Shown here piece after piece: positions 23,320 to 39,530 of a stretch of DNA of 64,000 nucleotides. The stretch spans positions 248,001 to 312,000 of the forward strand of contig PEKW01000007.1 in assembly GCA_002796995.1 (NCBI GenBank). Reading direction: 5' to 3'. Made by a program: the position numbers and the translations under genes. Positions within the stretch are counted from its first letter, which is position 1. Each line of letters opens with the position of its first letter. The notes beneath the pieces were generated by a model that ran no database searches, had not been told where the DNA came from, and was given only the letters and a program-made list of their open reading frames with translations. Source of the DNA: Rhizobium sp. Lineage in GTDB: Bacteria; Pseudomonadota; Alphaproteobacteria; Rhizobiales; Rhizobiaceae.

Positions 23320-24492
23320 ATGAGCCAGGACCTCGCGGCAGTCTTCGACGTCGATCTCGGGGAGGAGATCGCCGCCTTGCGCGACAGCGTTCGCCGGTTC
23401 GCCCAGGACCGGATTGCGCCGCTGGCAGACGAGATCGACCGGGAAGATCGCTTTCCCCGTGCCCTCTGGCCGGCGATGGGTGCACTCGGCCTGCACGGCA
23501 TCACGGTCTCCGACGAATTCGGCGGGGCCGACATGGGTTATCTCGCCCATTGCGTGGCGATGGAAGAGATCAGCCGCGCCTCCGCCTCCATCGGCCTCTC
23601 CTACGGGGCGCATTCCAATCTCTGCGTCAACCAGATCCATCGCTGGGGAACGCCCGAGCAGAAGCGGCGCTATCTGCCCATGCTCATCTCCGGAGAGCAT
23701 GTCGGCTCGCTGGCCATGAGCGAGACCGAAGCCGGGTCCGACGTGGTGTCGATGCGGCTGAAGGCCGAGCGCAAGGGCGACTTCTACGTGCTGAACGGCA
23801 CCAAGATGTGGATCACCAACGGCCACGAGGCCGACACGCTGGTGGTCTACGCCAAGACCGACATGGCCGCCGGTCCGCGCGGCATCACCGCGTTCATCGT
23901 CGAGAAGGGGTTCCAGGGTTTTCGCCCCGGCCAGAAGCTCGACAAGCTCGGCATGCGCGGCTCGCCGACTTCGGAACTGGTCTTCGAGGAGTGCGAAGTG
24001 CCGGCGGAAAACGTGCTCAGCAAGGTGGATGACGGCGTCACCGTGCTGATGAGCGGGCTCGATTTCGAGCGCGCCGTGCTGGCGGCCGGCCCGATCGGCA
24101 TCATGCAGGCGGCCTTCGACCTCGTCCTGCCCTACAGCCGCGAGCGACGCCAGTTCGGCAAGCCGATCGGCGAGTTCCAGCTGGTGCAGGGCAAGATCGC
24201 CGACATGTATACGGCGATGAACGCCTCGCGCGCCTATGTCTATGCGGTGGCGCGCGCCTGTGACAACGGCCGGATCACCCGGCAGGATGCGGCAGGCGCC
24301 ATCCTCTTCGCCGCCGAGCGGGCGACCCAGGTCGCCCTCGACGCCATCCAGCTTCTGGGCGGGACCGGCTACATGAACGACAGCGCGGCCGGCCGCCTGC
24401 TGCGCGACGCCAAGCTCTACGAGATCGGCGCCGGTACCAGCGAGATCCGGCGCATGCTGATCGGTCGCGAACTGTTCAAGAGCAATGCGTGA
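23320..24492 (+). CDS. liuA: isovaleryl-CoA dehydrogenase
   Basis: Acyl-CoA dehydrogenase motifs ([61 protein letters not shown]); first gene of leucine operon. Confidence 0.9.
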
Positions 24493-24496
24493 GGGG

Positions 24497-26103
<1,607 letters not shown>

Positions 26104-26104
<1 letters not shown>

Positions 26105-28107
26105 TGGTGATGTTTTCCAAGATCCTTGTCGCCAATCGCGGAGAAATCGCCTGCCGGATCATCCGCACTGCGCGCCGGATAGGCCTCGCCACGGTCGCCG
26201 TCTATTCCGAAGCGGACCGTGATGCCGCCCATGTGGCGTTAGCCGACGAGGCCTATGCGATCGGCCCCGCGCCGGCGCGCCACTCCTATCTCGACGGCGA
26301 GAAGATCATTGCCGCCGCGCTGGCAAGCGGGGCCGAGGCGATCCATCCCGGCTACGGCTTCCTGTCGGAGAATGCGGATTTCGCCGAAGCCTGCGCGGCT
26401 GCCGGGCTGGTTTTCATCGGTCCTCCCCCGTCGGCGATTCGTGCCATGGGCGGCAAGAGCGCGGCCAAGGCCCTGATGGCGGATGCCGGCGTGCCGCTGG
26501 TTCCCGGCTATCATGGCGACGACCAGTCCCCCGCGCTGCTGGCCGACGAAGCGGCCAAGATCGGCTATCCGGTCCTCATCAAGGCGTCCGCCGGCGGTGG
26601 CGGCAAGGGCATGCGCATCGTCGCCCGGCCGGAGGACTTTGCCGGCGAACTGGCCGGGGCCAAGCGCGAGGCGCTGGCGGCCTTCGGCGACGAGCGCATG
26701 CTGATCGAGAAATATCTGGCCCGGCCACGTCACGTGGAGCTTCAGGTCTTCGCCGACAATCACGGCAACTGCCATTCGCTGTTCGAGCGCGATTGCTCGA
26801 TCCAGCGCCGCCACCAGAAGGTGATCGAGGAGGCTCCCGCCCCCGGCCTGCCGGAGGATCTGCGCCGGCGCATGGGCGATGCCGCCCTCGCCTGCGCCCG
26901 CGCCATCCGCTATTCCGGCGCCGGAACGGTCGAATTCCTGCTCGATCAAAGCGGCGCATTCTACTTCATGGAGATGAACACCCGCCTCCAGGTCGAACAT
27001 CCCGTCACCGAATTCATCACCGGTCTCGACCTGGTCGAGTGGCAGTTGCGGGTGGCAGCGGGCGAACGCCTGCCGGAGAGCTGGGCCGATCTCAAGATCC
27101 AGGGCCATTCCATCGAGGCGCGGCTCTATGCCGAAGATCCGAACCATGAATTCCTGCCCTCGACCGGCCGGATCAGCCATCTTGTCCTGCCCGAGCCGGA
27201 CGCCCATGTCCGCATCGACAGCGGCGTGCGTGCCGGCGATGCCATCACCGTGCATTACGATCCGATGATCGCAAAACTGATCGTCTGGGACACCGATCGT
27301 GCCTCGGCGGTGCGTCGTCTGCGCGGCGCTCTCGGCAGCACGGCCATTGCCGGCGTGACCAGCAATGCGGGCTTTCTCACCAGGCTGTCGCGCCTTGCAG
27401 ATTTCGCCGATGCCAATCTCGACACCGGCTTCATCGCCCGCAACGAGGCAAACCTTTTGTCCGCATCTAAACCTGACCGGACGGCGGTGGCCATGGCGAC
27501 GCTCAGCCTGCTGCTGGCCCGAAAGGCCGCGACTGAGCGCCAGTCGATGGCGACGGCCGATCGCCATAGTCCGTGGAATAGGACGAACGGCTTCCGGCTC
27601 AACGGCCCGGCGCGTGAGAGGTTGCGGCTCGTCCTTGGGCAGGATGGGATCGAAACGGAGATCCTCCATCTGAGGCGGGGCTTCGAGATCGGCATCGGCG
27701 ACGAAGCCCTTGCGGCGGACGGCGTGCTGGCCGAGGACGGCGGGCTCTCGGCGATGATCGGCGGACGCAAGCACACCGGCTATTTCCTTTCGGACGGGGA
27801 AGCCTTCGATCTCATCGTCGGCGCAAATCGCTACCGCGTCACCACTCCCGATCAGGCTGGCGCTGCTGCTCCGGAGGCCTTGACGGGCGGGCTGACATCG
27901 CCGATGCCGGGCCTCATCCGCGCCGTCCTGGTCGCGGTGGACGATGCGGTCGATGCGGGCCAGGCGCTCGTCATCATGGAAGCCATGAAGATGGAACACA
28001 CGATCCGTGCACCATCAGCCGGTCTGATCAAGTCGCTGAACTGCGAGCAGGGTGCGATGGTCGAGGCGGGCATCGTGCTGGTCGATTTCGAACCGGAGGC
28101 CGGCTGA
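26104..28107 (+). CDS. liuD: 3-methylcrotonyl-CoA carboxylase alpha (biotin) subunit
   Basis: Biotin carboxylase N-term FSKILVANRGEIACRIIRTARRIG; biotin attachment VIMEAMKMEHTIRAP; start inside ORF 25768..28107. Confidence 0.93.
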
Positions 28108-28108
28108 C

Positions 28109-29023
28109 ATGGGGATGCCGCAAAACGTGAGGATCGTCGAGGTCGGCCCGCGCGACGGGCTGCAGAACGAGAGCGGCGAACTGCCCGTCGCAGTGAAGGT
28201 AGAGCTCGTCGAGCGCCTTGCCGCCGCGGGATTGCCGGCGGTGGAGGCCGGTTCCTTCGTTTCGCCCAAATGGGTGCCGCAAATGGCGGGGTCGGGCGAG
28301 GTTCTCCGCCAGATCGCGCGACGGCCGGGCACCGCCTATCCAGTGCTGGTGCCCAATCTCAAGGGGCTGGAGGCAGCGATTGCGGCGGGGGTCGAGGAGA
28401 TCGCGGTCTTCGTCTCCGCATCGGAAGGCTTCAGCCGGAAGAATCTTGCCTGTTCGCGGACGGAAAGCCTCGATCGGTTGCGCGAGGTTTTCGAGCGCGC
28501 CGGCGCCCGCGGCATGAAGATCCGCGGCTATGTCTCCTGCATCGCCGGCTGCCCCTTCGACGGCGATGTTCCGCCCGCCGAAGTCGCGGCCATGGCGAGC
28601 GAACTGATCGCCATGGGTTGCTACGAAATCTCGCTCGGCGACACGATCGGCGTGGGCACGGCAAGGCAGGTCCGCGGCATCATAAGTCAAGTGACCGCCG
28701 ATTTGCCGCGCGAAAGAATCGCCATGCATTTCCACGACACCTATGGCCAGGGCCTCGCCAATGTGCTGGCGAGCCTCGAAGAAGGCATTTCCGTCTTTGA
28801 CAGTTCCGTCGCCGGCCTCGGCGGCTGCCCCTATGCGCCGGGCGCCACCGGCAATGTCGCGACCGAAGACGTGCTCTACCTGCTGCGGGGCCTCGGCATT
28901 TCGACAGGGGTGGATCTGTCGGTGGTTGCGGAGACGGGTGCCTGGATCAGCGGCCTGCTCGGCCGACGCAATGAATCGCATGCCGGGCGGGCGCTGCTTG
29001 CCAGACGACAGGCGGGAGGATGA
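28109..29023 (+). CDS. liuE: hydroxymethylglutaryl-CoA lyase
   Basis: VRIVEVGPRDGLQNESG, GVGTARQVRGII, AGLGGCPYAPGATGNVATEDVLYLL. Confidence 0.93.
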   Translation: MGMPQNVRIVEVGPRDGLQNESGELPVAVKVELVERLAAAGLPAVEAGSFVSPKWVPQMAGSGEVLRQIARRPGTAYPVLVPNLKGLEAAIAAGVEEIAVFVSASEGFSRKNLACSRTESLDRLREVFERAGARGMKIRGYVSCIAGCPFDGDVPPAEVAAMASELIAMGCYEISLGDTIGVGTARQVRGIISQVTADLPRERIAMHFHDTYGQGLANVLASLEEGISVFDSSVAGLGGCPYAPGATGNVATEDVLYLLRGLGISTGVDLSVVAETGAWISGLLGRRNESHAGRALLARRQAGG

Positions 29024-29026
29024 AGA

Positions 29027-29797
29027 ATGACCGATGAACTGCTCGTCGAACGCCGCGGCAAGGTCCTGTGGCTGACGCTCAATCGTCCGAACGTGCATAA
29101 TGCGCTCAACGCAGCCGTGGTGGAGGCGCTGGTCGACGCTCTCGAGGCTGCCTCGATCGACGAGGCGCTGCGGGCCGTGGTGCTGACCGGCGCCGGCGCG
29201 CGCAGCTTCTGCTCCGGCGCCGATCTCAAGGAGAGCGCCGGCGCCATGTTCAGCTCGAAGGACGGAGCCAATCCGATCGCCGAGGTGCTGCGCGCCATCG
29301 AGACCTGCAGCAGACCGGTCATCGCTCGCATCAACGGTTCGGTCCTCGCCGGCGGCATCGGCCTCGTCGCCGCCTGCGACCTCGCCTATGCCGCCGAGCA
29401 TGCGAAGTTCGGCCTGCCGGAAGTGCGGGTCGGCCTGTTCCCGATGATGGTGGCGGCAAAGCTGTTGCCCGTGATGGATTTCAGGCGCCTTCAGGAAATG
29501 GCCTATCTCGGCGAGGGCTTTACCGCGGCCGCCGCCGAGGCGTGCGGGCTGATCACCCGTTGCGTGCCCTCGGCCGAGCTGGACACGGTCCTGTCCGCCG
29601 CTCTCGCCGCGCTTGACCAAGGTTCCCCCGCGGCGATCCAGGCCGGCAAACAGGCCCTGCGCGAAATGCGGGACATGGACGGCCGTGACAGGCTGGCCTT
29701 CGCCGAGCGCGCCATTGCCGACCTCTCCGACACCGCCGAGGCGCGCGAAGGCCGAGCGGCCTTTGCCGAAAAGCGGAAACCGCGGTGGGTGGACTAG
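29027..29797 (+). CDS. liuC: enoyl-CoA hydratase family, probable methylglutaconyl-CoA hydratase
   Basis: Crotonase fold; SFCSGADLKESAG, GSVLAGGIGLVAACDLAYAAEHAKFGLPEVRVGLFP. Confidence 0.85.
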   Translation: MTDELLVERRGKVLWLTLNRPNVHNALNAAVVEALVDALEAASIDEALRAVVLTGAGARSFCSGADLKESAGAMFSSKDGANPIAEVLRAIETCSRPVIARINGSVLAGGIGLVAACDLAYAAEHAKFGLPEVRVGLFPMMVAAKLLPVMDFRRLQEMAYLGEGFTAAAAEACGLITRCVPSAELDTVLSAALAALDQGSPAAIQAGKQALREMRDMDGRDRLAFAERAIADLSDTAEAREGRAAFAEKRKPRWVD

Positions 29798-29990: not shown

Positions 29991-30455
29991 ATGCTCACGA
30001 AAAAAGGCAAATACGGATTGAAGGCGCTGGTCGATCTGGCGCGGCTCGATCCAGGCGAGACCGCTTTTGTCACCGACATCGCCACGCGCAACAACATCCC
30101 GAAGAAATTCCTCGATACGATCCTGCTGGAGCTGCGCAACAACGGAATCCTGCGCTCGAAGAAGGGGCCGAACGGCGGGTACTCGCTTTCGAAACCCTCC
30201 GACGACATCATGATCGGCCAGGTCATCCGGGCGCTGGACGGCCCGCTGGCCCCAATCCGCTGCGCCAGTCGCACCGCCTTCGAAGCCTGCGACGACTGCG
30301 CCGATCCGGCGACCTGCCAGGTGCGCCTGTCGATGAGCGAGGTGCGCGATGCCATCGCCACCATTCTCGACAACATGACGCTGACCCAGTTCGTCGCGCG
30401 CGAAACGACCGCGGGTTCGGAGAGCACGCCGCGGCTTGAGCCGCAGGTCCGCTGA
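29991..30455 (+). CDS. Rrf2-family transcriptional regulator with four-Cys motif
   Basis: MLTKKGKYGLKALVDLARLDPGETAFVTDIATRNNIPKKFLDTILLELRNNGILRSKKGPNGGY; Cys pattern CASRTAFEACDDCADPATC. Confidence 0.88.
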   Translation: MLTKKGKYGLKALVDLARLDPGETAFVTDIATRNNIPKKFLDTILLELRNNGILRSKKGPNGGYSLSKPSDDIMIGQVIRALDGPLAPIRCASRTAFEACDDCADPATCQVRLSMSEVRDAIATILDNMTLTQFVARETTAGSESTPRLEPQVR

Positions 30456-30476: not shown

Positions 30477-31493
30477 CTAGACCGACCCTTGCTCCCCGCC
30501 GGCGATCAGCTGCAGGCCAAGGGCGGCAACGAGCGCCTCTTCCTCTTCGCCGGCGGTTATGCCGGTCTGCATGCGTTGCGTGGTGATGCCCAAGATAGTC
30601 GCGAGCCGATGAGCCTCGGCGATCGTCCCGCCCGCCGGATTGACCTGGGCAGCGTCGATCGCCGCAGCCACGCGCAGGATCAGCGCATGGATCGTCTCGA
30701 TCTCGACCTGGCGCCAGCCGATCACCTGGGCCGATGCGACGGTTGCATCCCCTTCGGCAGGGATCACCGCAACAAGGGTGTCGAGCTCTTTCCGGGCCTG
30801 GCCAAGTATGGCCGCGGCGAGCAGCAGCCTGTCCACGCTCTCCACCATGCGGGCGGCGTGACGGGTCGGCGCCAGGACGCTGTCGGCGGCGACGTGAACG
30901 CCGGCAAGGACGAGCCGCGATGAGGCGTCGTCCCCCGTTTCGGAAATCGTGACACCGGGTGCGTTGCGCGGCACGAGAAGCAGAGCGTTTTCTCCGGACG
31001 GATCGGCCGCAGGGATCGCAAGCCAGTCAGCATCCGCCGGCGCGGCAATTTTCGCCTCCCCTTCAAGACGAAAGCCCATGCCTTCGGGCCGGAACTGCGC
31101 ATCGCTCTCGAGCCGGGCAGCGGCCCGGCCCGCCAGGAGGAAACCCTCACCTGCAGCGGCGCGGGCAAAGGCGCTACGGCGCTGCTCTTCGCTGCCGGCA
31201 TTGCGGATCGCCTCCAGCGCGGAGAAGTGGGATGCGAGGATCGCTGCCGCCCTAGTCGAGACGGCGGCGAACAGCGATACCGCTTCGGCGAGCACGAGGT
31301 TCGAGACATCGAGGCCGCCGAAATCGCTCGGCACGGAGACGGCGAGAAGGCCGGATCGGCCGAGAGCCTCGGCGACCGGCATTTGCGCCAGGGCGGGAAG
31401 GACGGCGGATGCGACCGTCAGCACGTCGCCTTCCGTGTCGATGCGGTTGGGAACGGCGCGCAGACGCTCATGCAGATGCGTGATGGTTCCCAT
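30477..31493 (-). CDS. acyl-CoA dehydrogenase-like protein (SfnB-like, sulfur acquisition)
   Basis: 338 aa with acyl-CoA dehydrogenase-like layout (LGRSGLLAVSVPSDFGGLDVSNLVLAEAV...); genomic context with sulfonate genes. Confidence 0.6.
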   Translation of the reverse strand: MGTITHLHERLRAVPNRIDTEGDVLTVASAVLPALAQMPVAEALGRSGLLAVSVPSDFGGLDVSNLVLAEAVSLFAAVSTRAAAILASHFSALEAIRNAGSEEQRRSAFARAAAGEGFLLAGRAAARLESDAQFRPEGMGFRLEGEAKIAAPADADWLAIPAADPSGENALLLVPRNAPGVTISETGDDASSRLVLAGVHVAADSVLAPTRHAARMVESVDRLLLAAAILGQARKELDTLVAVIPAEGDATVASAQVIGWRQVEIETIHALILRVAAAIDAAQVNPAGGTIAEAHRLATILGITTQRMQTGITAGEEEEALVAALGLQLIAGGEQGSV

Positions 31494-31559
31494 TTTCGCT
31501 CCTTGGGTTCTGCCGGCCGGTCACGCCGCGCCTTCGCAGGCGGCAGCCCGTCACCACCA

Positions 31560-31691
31560 TCAGAGCAGGATGAGAACGGCCACAAGAAACACGACGGCCG
31601 AGACTGCCGCGACCGGCGCCATGCGTTCAGCAAGGGCGCTGGCTGCGGTTTTACGGCGCTGGCCGGCCGGATTGTCCAGAACGTGAGCCAT
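31560..31691 (-). CDS. 43-aa predicted single-TM microprotein
   Basis: MAHVLDNPAGQRRKTAASALAERMAPVAAVSAVVFLVAVLILL; AGGAGG Shine-Dalgarno six bases upstream of ATG (ccAGGAGGctatcATG). Confidence 0.6.
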   Translation of the reverse strand: MAHVLDNPAGQRRKTAASALAERMAPVAAVSAVVFLVAVLILL

Positions 31692-31704
31692 GATAGCCTC
31701 CTGG

Positions 31705-31893
31705 CTAGAGTACGGGAAACATGCCCCAGAAGAAATGCTCCTGGTCCCGGGCGTGTTCCGCCGGCGTGTCGGTCTTCGCATCCGGGGCATCCGCCGGAAG
31801 TCTGCGGTCGCCGGACTGGTGGCGGTCGGTCGGCTTGGCCCGCCGCGTGATCCCGAACAGATCGAAGGAAAAGCTGTCTATACCCATCGGCAT
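31705..31893 (-). CDS. 62-aa hypothetical microprotein
   Basis: MPMGIDSFSFDLFGITRRAKPTDRHQSGDRRLPADAPDAKTDTPAEHARDQEHFFWGMFPVL; upstream gcAGGAGGaatgaggcATG. Confidence 0.58.
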   Translation of the reverse strand: MPMGIDSFSFDLFGITRRAKPTDRHQSGDRRLPADAPDAKTDTPAEHARDQEHFFWGMFPVL

Positions 31894-31960
31894 GCCTCAT
31901 TCCTCCTGCTGCGCCCATCATGGGCTGATGTCGCAGTGTCGCCGCATTTTCATCGGCCGT

Positions 31961-31980
31961 CAATATTTTCTATAAAAACA
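31961..31980 (-). promoter_or_regulatory. AT-rich motif (TTTTTATAGAAAATATTG on - strand) upstream of microprotein pair
   Basis: Plus strand CAATATTTTCTATAAAAACA; near-identical core upstream of the second ssuA. Confidence 0.4.
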
Positions 31981-32071
31981 CTATTCTATTATGGCGGACG
32001 CCTTGGGCACAGCGTTTCCCGCACCGGGCAGGTCAGAGCAAAAGTGCGAGAACCGGCGGCAGGCCGCCGCA

Positions 32072-32620
32072 TCAACCGTCGAGCGATACATAGCGCCCGT
32101 TGCCGTAGACCAGCGAGCCGCCACCCAGGATGCGCAGCCCGACGACACGACCGATGACGATGGCATGGCTGTGCCGCTCCAACACCTCTTCGACCTCGCA
32201 GTCGATGGCGGACGCCGCATCCTCGAGAACCGGCGCACCGGAGGCGAGCGTGGTCCAGGAGGACCCGCGATAGCGATCCGGCCCCTTCAGGCCGCCCCTC
32301 CCGGCAAACTGGTTGGCGAGCCCTTCATGCAGCGGGCCGACGACGTTGACGCAGAAATGGCCGAAGCGCTCGACTACCGACCACGTCGAGGAGGTGCGAT
32401 TGAGCGAGACCAGCATGCGCGGCGGCTCCACGGAGAGCGCGGTCGCCGAGGTAACGGTCGCGCCGGTGCGCGCTTCGCCTTCGCCAGCCGTGACGATGCT
32501 GACCCCGCCGCCCAGATGGCGCAATGCGGCCTTGAGGCCGTCCGCGTCGACGGAAGGTTCTGCGGCGTCAAAGACCGGTTCGTGTCTGACCTGGCCCAGA
32601 TTGATAAGAGAGCGGTTCAT
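32072..32620 (-). CDS. flavin reductase family protein
   Basis: LGGGVSIVTAGEGEARTGATVTSATALSVEPPRMLVSLNRTSSTW, FCVNVVGPLHEGLANQFAG. Confidence 0.88.
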   Translation of the reverse strand: MNRSLINLGQVRHEPVFDAAEPSVDADGLKAALRHLGGGVSIVTAGEGEARTGATVTSATALSVEPPRMLVSLNRTSSTWSVVERFGHFCVNVVGPLHEGLANQFAGRGGLKGPDRYRGSSWTTLASGAPVLEDAASAIDCEVEEVLERHSHAIVIGRVVGLRILGGGSLVYGNGRYVSLDG

Positions 32621-32792
32621 CGGGAGCTCCGTGAAGGGTGGCGATCGGTGTCTGGAACCTTTCTAGCAGTGCAGACTTACTCTCCGTAGACATTCGTTTT
32701 TATAATCTATATATTTTGTAGAAAATAAGCCTGCATGTTCCCGTTGGGGAACGACGTCGTAGCCGTGAGGCTTCAGCTGAAGGGAGAACGCC

Positions 32793-36074: not shown

Positions 36075-37244
36075 TCAGGAACCGGATACGAGCCTGACAT
36101 TGCCGCCATGGCCGCCGCCGCCGAACACCTGGCGTTCGCCGAAGGACGAGCGGATCTGGTTTCGCGGGCCGCCAAGACCGATTTCCGGGAAGAGCAGCTC
36201 GGAGACGGTGTAGGCCTCCTCCAGATGCGGATAGCCGGAGGCGACGATCGTATCGATGCCCAGCGCCTGGTATTCGCGCAGGCGCGCGGCGACGGTCTTC
36301 GGCGAGCCGACCAGCGCCGTGCCGGCCCCCGAACGGACGAGACCGATACCGGCCCAGAGATTGGGCGAGACTTCCAGCTTGTCGCGCCGGCCGTTGTGAA
36401 GCGCCGCCATGCGCGCCTGGCCGACGGAATCGGAGTTCCTGGCAAAGGCCTCCTGGGCCGCGGCGATCGCCTCATCGGAGAGTTTGGATATCAGCTTGTC
36501 GGCGGCGGCCCAGGCCTCGTCGTCCGTCTCGCGAACGATGAAGTGCAGGCGGATGCCGAAGCTTGCCTCCTTGCCCCTGGCGGCTGCGGCCTTGCGGACG
36601 GAGGTGATCTTCTCGGCCACCTGCGCCGGCGGCTCGCCCCAGGTCAGGTACTTGTCGACGCGACCGCCGGCAAAGTCGATCGCCGCATCCGACGAGCCGC
36701 CGAAATAGAGCGGCGGGCGCGGTTCCTGGACCGGCGGGATACCGAGCTGGGCATTCAGAGCCTTGATATACTTGCCGTCGAGATTGGCCTTGCCGGTCTC
36801 GATCAGCTGATTGAAGACCTGGAAGAACTCGTCCGCATGGGCGTAGCGTTCGTCATGCGGCAGGAAGATGCCGTCGCCCGCCAGTTCCTGGGGGCTGCCG
36901 CCCACCACGATGTTCAGCAGCAGGCGTCCATTGGAGACGCGGTCGAGCGTCGAGGCCAGACGCGCATAATAGGCGGGCGAAGCCGTGCCGGGACGGATGG
37001 CGACGAGGAATTTCAGCTTCTCGGTGACGGCCGCAAGATGGCCGGCCAGCACGAAGGATTCCTCGCAGGCGACACCGGTCGGGATCAGCACGCCGGTATA
37101 GCCGAGGCGGTTGGCGGCGATGGCGATCTCGCGGAAATAGCCCGGATCGGCCGGCCGGCTGCGATCGTCGGAACCGAGATAGGATCCGTCACCCGAGGTC
37201 GGGATGAACCAGAGGAAGTCGAGGGGCTTTTCAGTCTTGGTCAT
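36075..37244 (-). CDS. ssuD: FMNH2-dependent alkanesulfonate monooxygenase
   Basis: 389 aa; [51 protein letters not shown]. Confidence 0.94.
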
Positions 37245-37269: not shown

Positions 37270-38235
37270 TCAGCTGGCCTTCGGCCGCCAGACGATGTCG
37301 GAAATGGTGAGCTTCTTCGGCAGGATGCCAAGGCCGTGGAACTCGTCGGCCAGCGCCTGCTGATAGGAGATCGCTTCATCGGTCAGGGGATGAACCCTGC
37401 CGAGGTCGGCGCCCTTGCGGGTCAGCACCGTACGCGTCACCTCGATCGGAACGCCGGTGATTTCCGAGAGGGCGGAAATCGTCTCCTCGATGTGCGATTG
37501 CGCCCAGGCGCCGGTCTTTGCCAGTTCGTCGATGACCTCCGACAGCACGTCGGGATTGGCGGCCGTGAAGTCGCCATTGCCGAAGTAGAAGCTCCAGCTG
37601 TCGACGATTCCCTCCGCGGTGGTCAGCACGCGCGTCTGCGGATCGGCTTCGGCGATCGCGTAGTAGGGATCCCAGATCGCCCAGGCGTCGATGCTGCCGG
37701 TCTTGAAGGCGGCGGCCGCATCCGGCGGAGGAAGGTCGATCGCCTCGACGTCGCTCACCGCCAGACCCGCCTTGCGCAGCGCCTTGACGGTGAAATTATG
37801 GGCGCTGGATCCGCGCTTGAACGCGACTTTCCTGCCCTTCAGATCTTCGAGCGAAGCGATCGGCGAGTCCTTGTGAACCAGGATGGCCGAGCCCGTCGAG
37901 GGGCCGCGATAGGTGCCGACATAGAGCAGGTTGCCGCCGGCGGCCTGGGCGAAGAGCGGCGGAACGTCGCCGGTCGGGCCGAAGTCGAGCGAGCCGGCAC
38001 CCAGCGCTTCGAGCAGCGGCGGACCGGAAGTGAATTCCGACCAGGTGACGCTGATGCCGCGCGGCGCCAGCCTTTTTTCGAGTGCGCCCGTACGCTTCGC
38101 CAGCGCGAGCACGCCATTCTTCTGCCAGCCGATCCGAAACTCGGTCGCCGCCGCCCGGGCGGGGCGGAGGGCCGGCATGGACAGCGTGGTCGCCGCCGCT
38201 CCGATCAGTGCCAAACTTTGCCTGCGCGTGATCAT
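37270..38235 (-). CDS. ssuA: sulfonate ABC transporter substrate-binding protein (copy 1)
   Basis: FRIGWQKNGVLALAKRTGALEKRL...TGDVPPLFAQAAGGNLLYVGTYR. Confidence 0.93.
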   Translation of the reverse strand: MITRRQSLALIGAAATTLSMPALRPARAAATEFRIGWQKNGVLALAKRTGALEKRLAPRGISVTWSEFTSGPPLLEALGAGSLDFGPTGDVPPLFAQAAGGNLLYVGTYRGPSTGSAILVHKDSPIASLEDLKGRKVAFKRGSSAHNFTVKALRKAGLAVSDVEAIDLPPPDAAAAFKTGSIDAWAIWDPYYAIAEADPQTRVLTTAEGIVDSWSFYFGNGDFTAANPDVLSEVIDELAKTGAWAQSHIEETISALSEITGVPIEVTRTVLTRKGADLGRVHPLTDEAISYQQALADEFHGLGILPKKLTISDIVWRPKAS

Positions 38236-38264
38236 GGTCTTTCTCCAATTTGGGTTGGCGGGGA

Positions 38265-39239
38265 TCAGCTGGCCTTGGGGCGCCAGACGATGTCCGAGAT
38301 GGCGAGCTTCTTCGGCAGGACGCCGAGCGCATGGAAGTCGTCGGCGAGCGCCTGCTGATAGGCGACGGCCTCCTCCGACACAGTGCCGACCTTGCCGAGA
38401 TCGGATCCGGCGCGAGTCAGCGTCACTCGGGTCACGTCGGCGGGAACTCCGGTGATTTCCGACAGTGCCGCGGTGGTTGCCTCGATGTCCGCTTGGGCGG
38501 CCGTGCCGACTTTGGCGAGCTCATCGAGGATCTCGGTGGTCAGTTGCGGATTCTGCGACGCGAAGGCGCCATTGCCGAGGAAGTAGCCCCAGGCCTCGAC
38601 GATGCCCTCCGAGGTGGTCAGCAGGCGGGCGTTCGGGTCCTTCTCGGCGATGGCGAAATAGGGATCCCAGATCGACCAGGCGTCTACGCTGCCGGTCTTG
38701 AAGGCGGCGGCCGCATCGGGTGGCGGCAGGTCGACGCTTTCGACGTCGTCCGGGGTCAGACCGGCCTTGGCCAAGGCCTTGAAGGCGAAATTATGGGCGC
38801 TCGATCCACGCTTGTAGGCGAGCCTGACGCCCTTGAGATCGGCCAGCGTCTTGATCGGGGAATCCTTGTGGACGAGGATGCCGTGGAAGGCGGCCGGCGG
38901 CTTGTAGGTGCCGACATAGACGAGATCACCGCCCGCAGCCTGGGCAAAGAGCGGCGGCACGTCGCCGGTCGGGCCGAAATCGAGCGCTCCGGCACCGAGT
39001 GCTTCGAGCAGCGGCGGACCAGAGGTGAACTCCGACCATTCGATGCCGATGCCGCGGTCGGCAAAGCGCTTTTCCAGCGCGCCCTGCTGCTTGGCAAGCG
39101 CCAGCACACCGAACTTCTGCCAGCCGATGCGTATGGTCTTCGCCTCTGCCGACGCCGCCCGCGGGAGTGGCAGGCTGGTTACGGCAAGGGCTGCGGCAAG
39201 CTTGAGACCCTGTCTCCTGGTAATCATCTTTATCTCCAT
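38265..39239 (-). CDS. ssuA: sulfonate ABC transporter substrate-binding protein (copy 2)
   Basis: IRIGWQKFGVLALAKQQGALEKRFADRGIGIEWSEFTSGPPLLEALGAGALDFG; start inside ORF 38265..39359. Confidence 0.92.
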   Translation of the reverse strand: MEIKMITRRQGLKLAAALAVTSLPLPRAASAEAKTIRIGWQKFGVLALAKQQGALEKRFADRGIGIEWSEFTSGPPLLEALGAGALDFGPTGDVPPLFAQAAGGDLVYVGTYKPPAAFHGILVHKDSPIKTLADLKGVRLAYKRGSSAHNFAFKALAKAGLTPDDVESVDLPPPDAAAAFKTGSVDAWSIWDPYFAIAEKDPNARLLTTSEGIVEAWGYFLGNGAFASQNPQLTTEILDELAKVGTAAQADIEATTAALSEITGVPADVTRVTLTRAGSDLGKVGTVSEEAVAYQQALADDFHALGVLPKKLAISDIVWRPKAS

Positions 39240-39280: not shown

Positions 39281-39300
39281 CAATATTCTCTATAGTTTTT
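39281..39300 (-). promoter_or_regulatory. AT-rich motif (AAAAACTATAGAGAATATTG on - strand) upstream of ssuA copy 2
   Basis: Plus strand CAATATTCTCTATAGTTTTT; matches the motif at 31961. Confidence 0.4.
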
Positions 39301-39530
39301 GTAAGGAATTTTATTCCAGCGGATAGGGTGGCGCGGAAATTATCCGTCGCGTCATGCACGGCTGTTGGAGATCATTCGTCGGCGGGGAACTTTTGCGGGC
39401 GATTCTGGAACGGCCATGCCGATATGATCCGCGTCCTTGGCGATGACTAAATGCAGACGCGGAAAACCAGCGGTCTATGCCGCGGGTCTCCTGTCTGTTG
39501 AAGGGGCGTCGCGCTTGACCCTGGAGGTTT

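Follow-up and report, generated by a model that had tools for sequence, protein, structure and literature searches.

Two very short open reading frames lie inside an organosulfur locus of a Ciceribacter-like soil bacterium, and they raise the question of whether they encode proteins at all and, if so, what such proteins would do for a cell that runs short of sulfur. The locus sits in a 64,000-nucleotide stretch of DNA, which was analysed as a whole and is referred to below as the window; its main features are collected in Table 1. A first-pass annotation had described two minus-strand frames of 62 and 43 amino acids, separated by 13 nt, each with a ribosome-binding site and both lying between a flavin reductase gene and an acyl-CoA-dehydrogenase-like gene, and on re-reading, the coordinates, the spacing and the flanking genes all proved correct. 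We refer to the two products as A and B. Read on the minus strand over positions 31500-32000, the gene order is promoter region, A, B and acyl-CoA-dehydrogenase-like gene, the last of which probably belongs to the same operon, and good ribosome-binding sites stand upstream of both small frames (GCAGGAGGAATGAGGCATG for A and CCAGGAGGCTATCATG for B). The ORF listing places B inside a 76-aa frame that begins at an ATG further upstream; it is the 43-aa start that relatives keep.

Table 1. Features of the A/B locus and its surroundings, in coordinates of the window.
Feature	Position	Strand	Remarks
Rrf2-family regulator gene	29994..30455	plus	candidate regulator of the operator
Acyl-CoA-dehydrogenase-like gene (SfnB-like, short)	30477..31493	minus	downstream of B, 66-nt gap
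Microprotein B, 43 aa	31560..31691	minus	single C-terminal transmembrane helix
Microprotein A, 62 aa	31705..31893	minus	MPMGIDSFSFDLFGITRR...DQEHFFWGMFPVL-stop; end motifs conserved, linker hypervariable
Sigma-70-type promoter of the AB operon	31935..31963	minus	TTGACG, 17-bp spacer, weak -10 GACACT
Operator-like element TAGAATAGTGTTTTTATAGAAAATA	31964..31988	minus	directly upstream of the -35 box of A
Flavin reductase-like gene	32072..32620	minus	upstream of A
Dyad CTATATATTTTGTAG, same operator class	32707..32721	plus	flavin reductase / FAD-oxidoreductase divergent promoter
SsuD alkanesulfonate monooxygenase	36075..37244	minus	TIGR03565, 576 bits, above the cut-off of 518
Same-class operator TTACAAAAACTATAGAGAAT	39285..39304	minus	upstream of the first ssuA copy

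Comparison of homologous loci answers the first part of the question: A and B are conserved proteins and not chance reading frames. Conservation of start, stop and frame had been proposed at the outset as a test of the claim; all three are kept across dozens of loci, and both ends of A are under purifying selection. An alignment of homologues gives a nearly invariant N-terminus (MPxGIxxFSFDLFGLxRR) and a nearly invariant C-terminus (FFWGMFPVL-stop), joined by a linker that is hypervariable in both length and sequence. The protein measures 46-50 aa in some genomes and 98 aa in others; at one locus (L114) a frame change alters the C-terminal end. A is, by these comparisons, a protein under selection at its two ends, because pairwise counts give a low dN at both of them (0-0.13 over the first 18 codons; mostly below 0.13, and never beyond about 0.2, over the final 12 codons) and a dN in the middle that is often near dS, which is the outcome, strong selection at the ends and weak in between, of the Ka/Ks check that had been suggested for A. 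The SFDLF segment prompted a comparison with beta-clamp-binding peptides (QL[SD]LF), and this candidate was rejected: S, T or G replaces the Q, which never appears in the members seen.

The first-pass annotation had recognised no family for either peptide, and the libraries agree. Neither A nor B has a match in Pfam-A, NCBIfam or PADLOC by family profile searches, NCBIfam holds no model for a microprotein family like A or B, a profile of A matched nothing in the PDB, and among PHROGs nothing rose above noise, the best value (E = 0.064) belonging to a relative of A. The A family is new to the libraries searched, and the literature searched contains no description of the A/B system, although its coverage was partial and an earlier account elsewhere is possible. 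We have read A at more than 50 loci, every one of them in Rhizobiaceae, in Ciceribacter/Rhizobium, Agrobacterium, Allorhizobium, Neorhizobium and other genera. Among 60 relatives, a first search recovered A in 15, each sharing the start, the stop and the motifs, and a profile search raised this to 23, all within the genus, in 3 of which the profile matched the N-terminal part only and the remainder was read by hand. Family-wide, A is carried by 20 of 398 genomes, spread over 7 of 109 genera; copies were read at 17 loci of named genomes (Ciceribacter, Rhizobium, Agrobacterium, Allorhizobium) and on megaplasmids of Neorhizobium galegae. No homologue was found in the 24 genomes of other families included in the 60-relative searches, nor in 298 genomes besides the window's own in an order-wide search whose first-look filter scored some of the candidates only and which also missed family members recovered by later profiles. 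On these searches, with that limit, the family looks lineage-restricted.

B is found behind A at about 60% of the loci, and its homologues are single-transmembrane peptides of 41-56 aa that in most Ciceribacter/Rhizobium-type loci usually lie 7-21 nt past A. The hydrophobic C-terminal stretch pointed out for B was correctly seen: AlphaFold predicts a helix over residues 15-42 that reaches the C-terminus, and block pLDDT there exceeds 90 for about the final 13-20 residues. Basic residues mark the N-terminal part, and the protein as a whole, which combines a single hydrophobic helix some 20 residues long with positive residues on one side of it, has the make-up of a single-pass membrane protein. 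B was not found beside A in genus g140, in Neorhizobium or in a few other lineages; because A is thus sometimes kept without B, it forms the module's core, and an anchor provided by B cannot be essential for A everywhere.

The connection to sulfur comes from the control region and from the neighbours. Across loci, the -35 box of the A promoter, together with the second A and the last T of its -10 box, is nearly invariant and the spacing is fixed; a consensus promoter scan missed the AB promoter because its -10 is weak. Directly 5' of TTGACn-N17-nAnAnT, the A loci carry a conserved block, TAGAATAnTAATTTTGTAGAAAATA, and when it is scored with a template drawn from those same A promoters, 41 of 45 loci score 12 or more out of 25, a level that 3 of 2056 random windows of the same DNA reach. 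The strict pattern, at no more than 3 mismatches, has a single copy in its own genome, which marks the A operator as a diverged form of the regulon site and not as a copy of it. Its relatives are the operators of the ssuA, ssuD, sbp and flavin-reductase promoters: with a matrix built from 19 hand-picked sites of other sulfur promoters (dyad CTAY-N7-RTAG), the stretch upstream of A falls in the top few percent of windows at most loci, in a ranking whose competing windows include those other sulfur promoters themselves. Several copies of A that lack an operator of their own are explained because the operon upstream carries the site: at L033, L109 and L110, A lies 50-55 nt after an operator-bearing RBBP9-type hydrolase gene, and at L069 and L104 it stands behind ssuD and flavin reductase genes in what looks like one operon, the site preceding ssuD. 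An operator of the kind that the ssu, sbp and flavin-reductase promoters carry is accordingly found either before the A gene or before its operon, a probable sulfur operator of the CTAY-N7-RTAG class is indicated, and A/B very probably constitutes, as far as sequence can tell, a sulfur-regulon microprotein operon. As a separate observation, an RBBP9/YdeN-type alpha/beta hydrolase gene stands beside A at about 12 loci (among them L025, L027, L028, L033, L109 and L110, where it lies upstream of A); several copies carry the same operator, and the hydrolase may likewise belong to the sulfur regulon.

For the protein that reads this site, the neighbouring Rrf2-family protein is the likely candidate, judging from its co-occurrence with A. 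At many loci it is encoded near A, with 70-95% identity, and its gene is present, at an identity of at least about 72%, in 23 of 23 A-positive genomes of the same genus and absent from 9 of the 13 that are A-negative (Fisher p = 7.6e-6, in a test that ignores the shared ancestry of the genomes). A cysteine cluster, RCASRTAFEACDDCADPATC, was read by eye in the Rrf2 protein and suggests a metal or Fe-S centre. Beyond the Rrf2 gene, positions 24485-29797 of the plus strand hold genes that, from ORF reading only, encode an acyl-CoA carboxylase, an HMG-CoA-lyase-type enzyme and an enoyl-CoA hydratase, a cluster that resembles leucine degradation.

Besides SsuD, the organosulfur locus of the window contains SsuA, SsuB and SsuC of the expected kinds. 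Two ssuA-type binding-protein genes form a tandem (37270-39227, minus strand; 69% identical) that is kept in several relatives. The acyl-CoA-dehydrogenase-like gene was also considered as an SfnB equivalog and rejected, its score against TIGR04022 being 88.5 bits where the cut-off is 430.9. In a manual count made without a random-gene baseline, 34 of 52 distinct A loci adjoin sulfur genes or the Rrf2 gene: 31 have at least one sulfur gene within about 8 kb and 3 have the Rrf2 gene only, where the set counted comprises ssuA-D, flavin reductase, FAD oxidoreductase, SfnB-like genes, the sulfate-binding protein with cysTWA, and sulfurtransferase with the thiosulfate importer. At the other 18 loci, no sulfur neighbour was recognised within about 8 kb of A; in genus g140, for example (L065, L068, L096-L099), A without B is found next to a class-V-aminotransferase-like gene and not next to sulfur genes. 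The sulfur gene set itself differs by locus (cysTWA at L023 and L024, thiosulfate genes at L073, ssu at L027), and paralogous copies of A within one genome lie at different sulfur loci, as in G023, G527 and G624. A gene for a 1-Cys-type peroxiredoxin was also seen near A at several loci (L026, L029, L030, L061, L102, L107 and L108). Synteny and the shared operator together lend good support to the earlier proposal of a co-transcribed pair linked to sulfur starvation.

As to what the pair does, A/B is probably a small helper, tethered to the membrane and produced when sulfur runs short, and on balance we lean towards a fuller reading, that of a two-gene sulfur-limitation module, present in part of Rhizobiaceae, in which B anchors and A acts as a bivalent tether. 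Sulfur shortage would induce the module, with the neighbouring Rrf2 protein as its likely regulator; B would sit in the membrane with its basic N-terminus in the cytoplasm; A would be a flexible tether, its two motifs each binding one of two partner surfaces at the membrane; and the module would thereby tune uptake or turnover there. Since A has no enzyme or transporter gene as a constant companion, its partner would probably be a conserved cellular component, or else the sulfur importers as a group.

The best-placed alternative, a serious one that we nonetheless consider unlikely, makes AB an accessory or regulatory subunit of sulfur importers (SsuABC, CysTWA, TsuA) that might, for example, stabilise a permease or gate uptake. 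That B is a transmembrane protein and that three kinds of transporter genes adjoin many loci speak for it, but the neighbouring transporters are mutually unrelated, A survives without B in g140 and Neorhizobium, and no such transporter was recognised in the stretch examined at L025, L060, L076, L103 and L113-L115. The earlier suggestion of a membrane or transporter accessory thus stands in part: it is plausible for the single-transmembrane B, whereas a dedicated subunit of one transporter is disfavoured because the pair adjoins several unrelated sulfur genes and A sometimes occurs without B.

Next in order, and rather improbable in our estimation, is a reading by analogy with NblA, in which A would be an adaptor that feeds a protease or remodels a core machine in sulfur shortage and B would recruit it to the membrane. 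Two short conserved motifs flanking a hypervariable linker are the layout of a bivalent adaptor, no neighbouring enzyme is constant, and A modelled alone by AlphaFold is disordered, without a confident structure; against this, the family searches found no likeness to a known adaptor family. A bolder version, of which we are just as doubtful, would make A the founder of a new family, in which disordered tethers with two invariant end motifs on a freely evolving linker are produced under sulfur shortage and bring a core machine (a protease, a replisome or a translation component) to the membrane via B; A/B would then be an adaptor module of Rhizobiaceae dedicated to sulfur starvation.

Small size, adjacent genes and a hydrophobic B might also recall a toxin-antitoxin pair, with B as a toxic membrane peptide and A as its antidote, a candidate that was rejected as very improbable, since there is no known-system match (none in PADLOC, and nothing above noise in PHROGs) and the partners are not co-inherited, A being better conserved than B and retained without it in several genera, and the promoter is moreover of a nutrient type in synteny with sulfur genes. 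Least probable of all is that the frames are spurious and the conservation that of a regulatory or structured RNA, for although the DNA upstream of A is very strongly conserved, the ends of A show purifying selection at the codon level while synonymous sites change freely, length differences preserve the frame, and the only Rfam match is sub-threshold (24 vs 71 bits).

Small proteins of nutrient stress have mostly been found singly and in model strains; for A, a whole family can be read from genomes together with the partner, the promoter and the probable regulon. The fixed ends and free linker predict which residues of A matter, and its role in sulfur scavenging is open to direct study in culturable rhizobia, since Neorhizobium galegae and Ciceribacter species carry it.

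Among known systems, the SfnB and Ssu clusters (TIGR04022, TIGR03565) are the nearest in setting: the cluster of the window has a true SsuD and an SfnB-like gene with AB inside, whereas the Ssu and SfnB families are themselves enzymes and transporters. Plant-specific sulfur-shortage proteins, whose molecular function is likewise not known, offer a likeness that carries no claim of homology. NblA is a starvation adaptor of cyanobacteria, and adaptors of its type share with A a size of about 60 aa and a starvation-linked adaptor logic, but the family searches found no sequence match between them. DUF1127 small proteins act on PhoR in Agrobacterium tumefaciens (PMC12501420). They bear no sequence relation to A or B, which have no Pfam match, and their system concerns phosphate where that of A/B concerns sulfur; the likeness is that of very small alphaproteobacterial proteins tuning nutrient uptake by protein-protein contact, and the DUF1127-PhoR case indicates, as an analogy and not as a membership, that in this bacterial group nutrient uptake can be under the influence of proteins of very small size (PMC12501420).
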